In this document: positions 53,065-56,000 of the stretch, one piece after another
Layout of the letters: every line of letters begins with the position of its first letter
How positions within the stretch are numbered: position 1 is the stretch's first letter
Assembly: GCF_037975245.1 (NCBI RefSeq)
Contig: NC_092562.1
Span: 16,054,521 to 16,118,520, forward strand
DNA: 64,000 nucleotides
Reading direction: 5' to 3'
Origin: Apostichopus japonicus
Taxonomy: Eukaryota; Echinodermata; Holothuroidea; Aspidochirotida; Stichopodidae
The notes under the pieces: generated by a model
Told to the model about the DNA's origin: nothing
The model's database searches: none
The model's input: only the letters and a program-made list of their open reading frames with translations
Translations under genes and position numbers: made by a program

Positions 53065-56000
53065 CTGATGAAAGGAAATCAAGACATAAGTCTTTATAGT
53101 AGGCATTGAGTTCATATTGATATAGCATTTAAGGTAAGCTTGGTATTTGAAAATGATCTGCTCTATTTCCTACAAAACTCCAGACTCATCCACTTTTCCC
53201 AAACTCCCCCCCCCCTCCCCCACCCAAACCCATCTCCTCTTCTATTTCCATCATTACCAAAATGTGTGAAGTTCTGTCTATTTCATGAATCCAATTTCCA
53301 GACCAAAGACAAAACTACGATATGATACTGCACATACCGCTTTTCAAATAAAAGAGTTGCTCCAAGACCTACCTGTTGTACCCAAGGATGTCTCAGAACC
53401 ATATCAGCGCTAATCCTCTGCTTAGCATCCCTGACCAGCAGGTGGGAGATGAGGTCCTTAGCACCCTCTGAGATGTTATCCCACTCGTTCTCTGAAAACT
53501 CATAGATACCAGCCTGGATACTGTGGAGCAGTAGGTCCTGCAGAAGTAACCAAAAAAACAAGGTCTTCATAAAAACTTACAAGCATCAATTAATTCACCT
53601 TTCTCTCTGCAATAATTTGATAACGTGGCTGGTTGAGACACAATCACATCTCTAAAGAGTAGAAGTGAAAGGAGGGGGGGGGAGGTGTGACTGGAGAATG
53701 AGCAGGGAAGGGTTATGGCAAATCAAGAGTATATTTACTGAAATTCAACTGACCCCGTTTTCAGTTTCATATAAACTTCTAACTTGCTGTGCACTGCCCT
53801 GCAAATCTTTTTCCCCATCGAAATTTTCAGAATGCTCATCGCTAACATCTGCGAGACTTAGCTTTGGATATCATCATAATTACTTGGAGAATTGGCACAA
53901 AACCATGCCACATTGAGCAAAGCACAAGATGAGGGCAATTATTCAACTTAGAAATAGCAAAAAAACACAAGTTGTAAGAAACAAGTACTTTCTAATATCT
54001 GATTTCTGCTACTTAATTATTTGCGATATTTAGCTGCGATTATTATTATTTTTTTGTATGTTTAGTTGCGATTATTTGCGATATTTAGAACCTCACCTCG
54101 CATTCCTTGCAGGCTTCTCCCCTGTCCCATCCACAGTCCTCGCCGCAGTTGCCAACAAACGGCGGATTTCCACAAAGCATAATGTACAAGATGACTCCAA
54201 GGCTCCACAGGTCACAGCGTTTGTCGTAGGCTGACGCTTCATGCTCATCTAAGAATGCATTTGCAATTTCAGGTGCCATGAATTCAGCTGACCCGACCTG
54301 TCAAAAAGAACAGATACTAATAATAATAATCTGTGGTTACTTTTACGACGTTTAAAGCAACCGCAAATGTCATTACCAAACGTCATTTACCACAAAAGTT
54401 ACGTCATACGACCGTCAGAGGTAGTCATGAACAATTGCATTGATGTCTGCTGATGTCATCTTGCAATTAAAAACTTCCTCAGAGAGCAAAGACGAATAAA
54501 CAAAAATCAATATTATGAAATGTCTGAAACCAGATTTAAAAACAATCTGTAATAATAACTTTCACTCTTTTTCATTGTTACTATGAGGAAGTATCTTCTT
54601 TGCTGATCTATAAATACCCCACAAAAGAATTACAATATTCATATCAAAACACAGTCCCCCCCCTCCTTGTATCCTATCCTTCGCACAACACAAAGCAGGA
54701 AGTAACTCGAGAACTAAAGAGTGCTCTTATATCCTGACGAAACACTTCTAATTTCACTCAAAACTTGGCTGACTGCCACAACCTCCTGAGGGCCAATAGC
54801 ATTGAAAGAACTGTTTTTTACACAGCCGCCTACCAGTAACACTAAGATTGTATATAGATATGTCACTGAATCATTATCCATCCAACACACAGTGTGCACG
54901 GTATGTACACTACTGCTGTAATGGCACTAATTTACAACATTCTTGCATTGTGTACTGTGTAATAGTAACGCCACAGGGAAGTACACCTTTGTAACACTGA
55001 CATGCCTTGTTCAAAAACGGAAGAAAATGATTGTGATTTGAAGAGTTATCTTAGGCAAGGGAGGAGTGTGGGGGGGGAGGGGATGGAGACAGGAGGAAGG
55101 GGAGAGAGAGGTGATATTGCACCCTCCTATGAAACTAGGCATGTACAGTTTGAATACCTAAACAAATATAACTTACCGGTGTGAGGAGTTCCGGGGTGGT
55201 GACGGGGGTGTTGTACTGGCTGTTGAGGTGAATACCACTTCCCAGGCCAAAGTCACATATTTTCACAGGTGAAATTCTGTCAGTATTGACACAGAGGATG
55301 TTCTCAGGTTTAAGGTCTCGGTGGGCTATACCTGAAAGTACCAAAAAAGAGAAGGAATCACAATCACTGGCCCACATGATAAGACACAAACTAATCATTC
55401 AATTGAAAAATTATTTATCAAAAAAATTATGTTCAGCTTCCTACATGAATATGAATTTTTCTTCTTTCTCTTCTGTATTTGTTCACAAATGATACTCCTG
55501 CTAATGGAAAAAAAACTTTCATTTTTACCTCAGAGGAGAAGAAATCATAAATCACAGAGCCGCCCTAAAAAAAAACGTTTTTCATGTCAGACGCCAAGCA
55601 AAGAGAACACGCCCCCATCGCTTACCTTTATTATGTAAGAAGCTAAGGGCACTGGCGATATCTCTAACCACAATACTGGCTTCCTGCTCTGTAAAGTTCT
55701 TCCTCTGCTCAATATGATGCAGAAGAGCACCTCCTTCCATCTTCTCAAATACCAAGTAAAATCTAAGCAAAATGGACAAAGTAAGCAAAAATATTAAGGT
55801 TTCTTAGATTCTGGTTCAAAGTAGAGGTGTCAAATACAGGTAACTTATGTCACATGACTGTCTTTCATGTAACAAGTATAACATAAACTGCACCTTATTA
55901 TTCCCACCATCTTCCCACCATCTTCCCACCATAAGTCAGTCTATTCTCCAGTCTACAGAGCTGTTGCATGTCTTGAAAAAAATTAAACAGACGAAGAAAG

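Follow-up and report, generated by a model that had tools for sequence, protein, structure and literature searches.

A DFG-bearing MNK variant in the sea cucumber Apostichopus japonicus

In the present study, an apparently single and intact MNK carrying Gly where the human enzymes carry the third Asp of the DFD motif was observed in the sea cucumber Apostichopus japonicus. Judged from its sequence, this is a true variant of MNK, a real if modest departure from a known kinase. Altered enzyme behaviour is plausible by analogy with the human kinases, and we assign a probability of roughly 0.6 to the reading that the Gly permits exchange between DFG-in and DFG-out, eases ATP binding, leaves autoinhibition partial, and goes back to one GAC to GGC transition. 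The Gly may be confined to this individual, or it may be shared by sea cucumbers, by echinoderms, or by a wider group.

In reviews, the resting state of human MNKs is described as DFD-out, the Phe occupying the ATP pocket (PMC3326643, PMC7312468), and DFD is called a special feature of MNKs (PMC3326643, PMC7215568, PMC7312468). The affinity for ATP is reported to be lower with DFD than with DFG (PMC6225114). In MNK1, Phe230 displaces Phe192 into the ATP-binding site (PMC7215568). Human MNK2 carrying D228G shows both conformations, with DFG-out still visited (PMC3326643, PMC1821047). The third Asp is also presented as the hallmark of MNKs and a basis for selective inhibitors.

Results

Gene model and the DFG codon

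Nine coding exons on the minus strand of the window (the whole stretch of 64,000 nucleotides analysed, on contig C2 of the assembly) are joined in one frame into a 464-residue MNK, with GT after exons 1-8 and AG before exons 2-9 (Table 1). The magnesium-loop codons GAC TTT GGC encode Asp233-Phe234-Gly235, so that the initial annotation was right in reading DFG and not DFD in an MNK, and its residue numbers are correct. The coordinates it gave for the motif (55238-55266) are a few bases off, the 10-residue stretch holding the motif being at 55263-55234 of the minus strand. In the alignment, Gly235 takes the position of Asp228 of human MNK2 and Asp193 of human MNK1; the eight preceding and four following columns are identical to both human kinases, so that Gly235 stands as an isolated change within an invariant block.

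Table 1. Coding exons and the Gly235 codon of the sea cucumber MNK gene; positions are those of the window.
Feature	Position	Strand	Content
Coding exon 1	59051..59186	-	start ATG at 59186
Coding exon 2	58532..58657	-	basic stretch from residue 68
Coding exon 3	56508..56605	-	glycine-rich loop and Lys120
Coding exon 4	56040..56161	-	Glu136, aligned to human MNK2 Glu129
Coding exon 5	55626..55762	-	gatekeeper Phe166 and hinge
Coding exon 6	55177..55331	-	HRD, DFG (233-235), first MNK insert, TP sites T252 and T257
GGC codon	55246..55248	-	Gly235 replacing human Asp228/Asp193
Coding exon 7	54097..54297	-	APE, autoinhibitory Phe273, zinc insert
Coding exon 8	53373..53537	-	
Coding exon 9	52810..53064	-	C-terminal tail, LAKRR (residue 442), stop

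Family membership

Among the best 60 of 2598 matches in a PDB sequence search, the five best distinct sequences, at 457-463 bits, were three of MNK2 and two of MNK1, and the next kinase was MSK1 at 180 bits, which bears out the earlier statement that this is not a different kinase. The top match in the same set is the engineered MNK2 D228G sequence (u22617, 12 entries), the two DFD sequences of MNK2 accounting for 3 entries. Of the five, four human MNK1/2 sequences carry the Asp and read DFD, the fifth being the engineered mutant; both these PDB sequences and the alignment agree with the annotated DFD of human MNK1/2. The kinase domain is 65% identical to that of human MNK2 and 67% identical to that of human MNK1.

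The catalytic Lys, Glu, HRD, and Asn are all in place in the alignment. Likewise, the cysteine insert, the two TP sites, and the LAKRR motif, which had been listed as retained, were recovered on alignment: the four cysteines C309, C313, C321, and C324 of the predicted zinc insert after APE align with those of human MNKs, both TP sites of the activation segment are kept, and the autoinhibitory Phe is kept as F273, equivalent to Phe230 of MNK1 and Phe265 of MNK2. A basic N-terminal stretch is found at residue 68, and LAKRR at residue 442 is docking-like; the docking motif of human MNKs is LARRR. The one family mark that is missing is the replacement of DFG by DFD, the codons GAC TTT GGC reading DFG. 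Since the other MNK sequence features tested are present, the gene is filed as an MNK variant and not as a canonical member.

Altered MNK inserts

To call the protein an otherwise textbook MNK was too strong, as a Lys to His change and three extra residues are spread across both inserts, changes absent from the initial annotation. In the first MNK insert, His241 stands where the human kinases have Lys234 (MNK2) or Lys199 (MNK1), and this insert is one residue longer owing to an extra N247; the insert after APE is two residues longer, with an extra E276-H277. Hou and others reportedly proposed in 2013 that Lys234 of the first insert acts through Asp226 to stabilise DFD-out. If Lys234 is such a prop, His241 would remove or weaken a second prop of that state.

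Copy number and alternative exons

The assembly searched comprises 671,581,487 bases in 35 contigs. The DNA of the motif-bearing exon gave one match in it, at 100% identity, and the exact DNA pattern for the zinc-insert signature DCGWDRGE occurs once, at the gene in the window. A protein search, in which 91 of 176 candidates were scored, yielded 51 matches. Nine of them, with at least 80% identity, correspond to the exons in the window; the remainder reach at most 48%. The exact DNA pattern for the DFD motif, which would miss a motif split by an intron, gave one match to K-[ILMV]-C-D-F-D-[LF] (pattern AARVTNTGYGAYTTYGAYYTN), on contig C13; the frame in which this match falls is short and is not flanked by kinase sequence, and the match is therefore taken for chance. 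Within the window, tblastn of the protein recovered the nine exons plus three further matches (E 2.0, 4.7, and 6.5); no alternative, mutually exclusive DFD exon showed. In all likelihood, then, the 671.6 Mb assembly holds no MNK apart from this one, and the second DFD-bearing MNK that had been named as a possible refutation was not found in this assembly by motif, signature, or protein searches, which would overlook a copy in stretches missing from the searched sequence.

The mitochondrial contig of the assembly (C35) opens with COX1, a short frame at 1615-1923, which we take to be nad4L from the gene order, and COX2. Eleven AAA codons in this COX1 stand in contexts that are sensible as Asn; Asn for AAA and the order COX1-nad4L-COX2 are echinoderm mitochondrial marks. 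Split COX1 matches at C29:14745-16086 and 30842-31219 may be nuclear copies or a second mitochondrial assembly.

Other features of the window

Several other features were also observed. A long exon-like frame at 34509-35288 on the plus strand, opposite to that of MNK, matches Pfam Diphthamide_syn at 208.5 bits and marks a diphthamide-synthesis gene of DPH1/DPH2 type; just past this exon, a 162-base unit is repeated 2.4 times (35560-35936). Three minus-strand stretches (10956-11324, 20841-21290, and 23884-24237) have by eye the look of coiled-coil/SMC-type exons and match no Pfam family, and a lone tRNA-Ile-like ARAGORN match, which may be a gene or derive from a repeat, lies at 40596-40674 of the minus strand.

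Wider searches and the expected substrate

No relative was found among 2 and 38 stretches of a non-animal collection of viral contigs, two further scans of which gave 0 matches, nor among 193 and 58 stretches of a non-animal collection of genome contigs. Among the 58 were five bacterial loci that align at 40-49% identity to the leading 47-50 of 122 residues; they were taken for generic kinases and left out of the comparison. In an open library, a full-text search for motif strings found no paper, and the accessible portions of the literature naming Apostichopus and Mnk contained no description of the motif of the gene.

eIF4E is the expected substrate. By eye, the gene at C6:4074452-4076454 reads like eIF4E1 and a gene on C10 like 4EHP. 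The exact DNA pattern for TKNRFVV followed by a stop gave 0 matches in the assembly, and motif scans of three eIF4E-like places (on C10, on C6 including 16.5 kb, and on C20) returned no convincing C-terminal phosphosite tail; as far as C6:4092300, no last exon carrying the MNK phosphosite was found for the eIF4E1-like gene. One tail-motif match on C10 was set aside, as it sits in a repeat-like frame. The unlocated tail either speaks mildly against the pathway reading presented below or reflects a tail that has diverged or is split by an intron.

Discussion

Herein, a loosened resting state is put forward for the sea cucumber MNK. First, by analogy with the human enzymes, the resting kinase would move between DFG-in and DFG-out and not be held DFD-out. 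The absence of the Asp, together with the Lys to His change in the first insert, would lead to this exchange, and the exchange would in turn make ATP binding easier before activation. Since human D228G visits both conformations, the Gly should loosen the DFD-out bias and not abolish it. Second, F273 and the activation segment would favour DFG-out until T252/T257 are phosphorylated, resulting in partial autoinhibition. Third, ERK or p38 would be expected to act on T252/T257, after which eIF4E would be phosphorylated, as with other MNKs. The altered inhibitor response raised in the initial annotation is conjectural. The likely history is a single transition, GAC to GGC, on the lineage leading to this animal.

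An alternative to this history is that DFG is old or widespread in echinoderm or invertebrate MNKs, that DFD is a vertebrate, perhaps also insect, condition, and that nothing has been restored in the sea cucumber. The comparison set used here consists of human MNKs alone, which leaves room for such a distribution. However, Drosophila Lk6 reads DFD, and together with the DFD of vertebrates this would make DFD older than the echinoderms. A study of scallop MNK1 offers a 26-species alignment and a model of sea urchin MNK1, and the accessible part of its text gives no motif letters (PMC12095029). We regard an old DFG as quite possible, at less than even odds.

It is also conceivable, although somewhat unlikely in our estimation, that the Gly has hardly any functional effect, with the altered inserts and F273 keeping the kinase off equally well. 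Human MNK2 D228G still visits DFG-out (PMC3326643, PMC1821047), and both inserts differ from the human ones, with three extra residues in all, which could compensate. Against neutrality, Asp is found in all four non-engineered human MNK1/2 sequences of the PDB search, and the reviews call this Asp the special feature of the family. Conversely, a stronger version of the loosened state may be considered, in which the control of the sea cucumber enzyme has been rewired: Asp to Gly and Lys to His would together have removed the DFD-out lock, leaving a phosphorylation-switched, CAMK-like MNK with higher basal phosphorylation of eIF4E. We hold this rewiring to be doubtful; if it holds, the enzyme would be nature's equivalent of human D228G.

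That the Gly makes the MNK constitutively active and independent of ERK/p38 is improbable. In its favour, the motif is canonical and the catalytic residues are intact; against it, the TP sites, F273, and the docking-like LAKRR are retained, and D228G still shows DFG-out (PMC3326643). An assembly error or a rare allele, with GAC/GAT as the true or common codon, is very improbable; the sequence comes from one assembly, and from one animal if this is the published one, yet neither the reading frame nor the flanking residues are disturbed, and the published A. japonicus assembly was built from about 64x HiFi and 84x Illumina reads (PMC10344927), a HiFi depth at which a single wrong base within a coding exon is unlikely. 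A rare allele may still be the source of the Gly codon.

The DFG of the sea cucumber is a natural version of the swap that crystallographers engineered into human MNK2. A natural Gly-bearing MNK, with no DFD copy found beside it, offers a ready test of the share of the Asp in autoinhibition. Moreover, DFG in a genuine MNK suggests that the motif alone should not define the family.

Comparison with known kinases

Human MNK2 (MKNK2; 2AC3) has in common with the sea cucumber MNK an end-to-end alignment of the kinase domain, the insert cysteines, the TP sites, and Phe265. The two differ in that natural human MNK2 has DFD and Lys234, whereas the sea cucumber protein has DFG and His241, its first insert being longer by one residue and its second by two. 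The engineered MNK2 D228G (2AC5, 2HW7) carries the same DFG as the sea cucumber MNK. With human MNK1 (MKNK1; 2HW6, 5WVD), the equivalents of Phe230, T209, and T214 are shared; human MNK1 differs in its DFD, and its hinge Leu127 corresponds to Met162 in MNK2 and Met169 in the sea cucumber. MSK1/RSK/MAPKAPK and other CAMK kinases share the kinase fold and the DFG motif, but among the best 60 of 2598 matches they reach at most 180 bits, compared with 457-463 bits for the MNKs, and the insert signature DCGWDRGE, which sets the MNK apart from them, is found in this assembly at the MNK gene alone.
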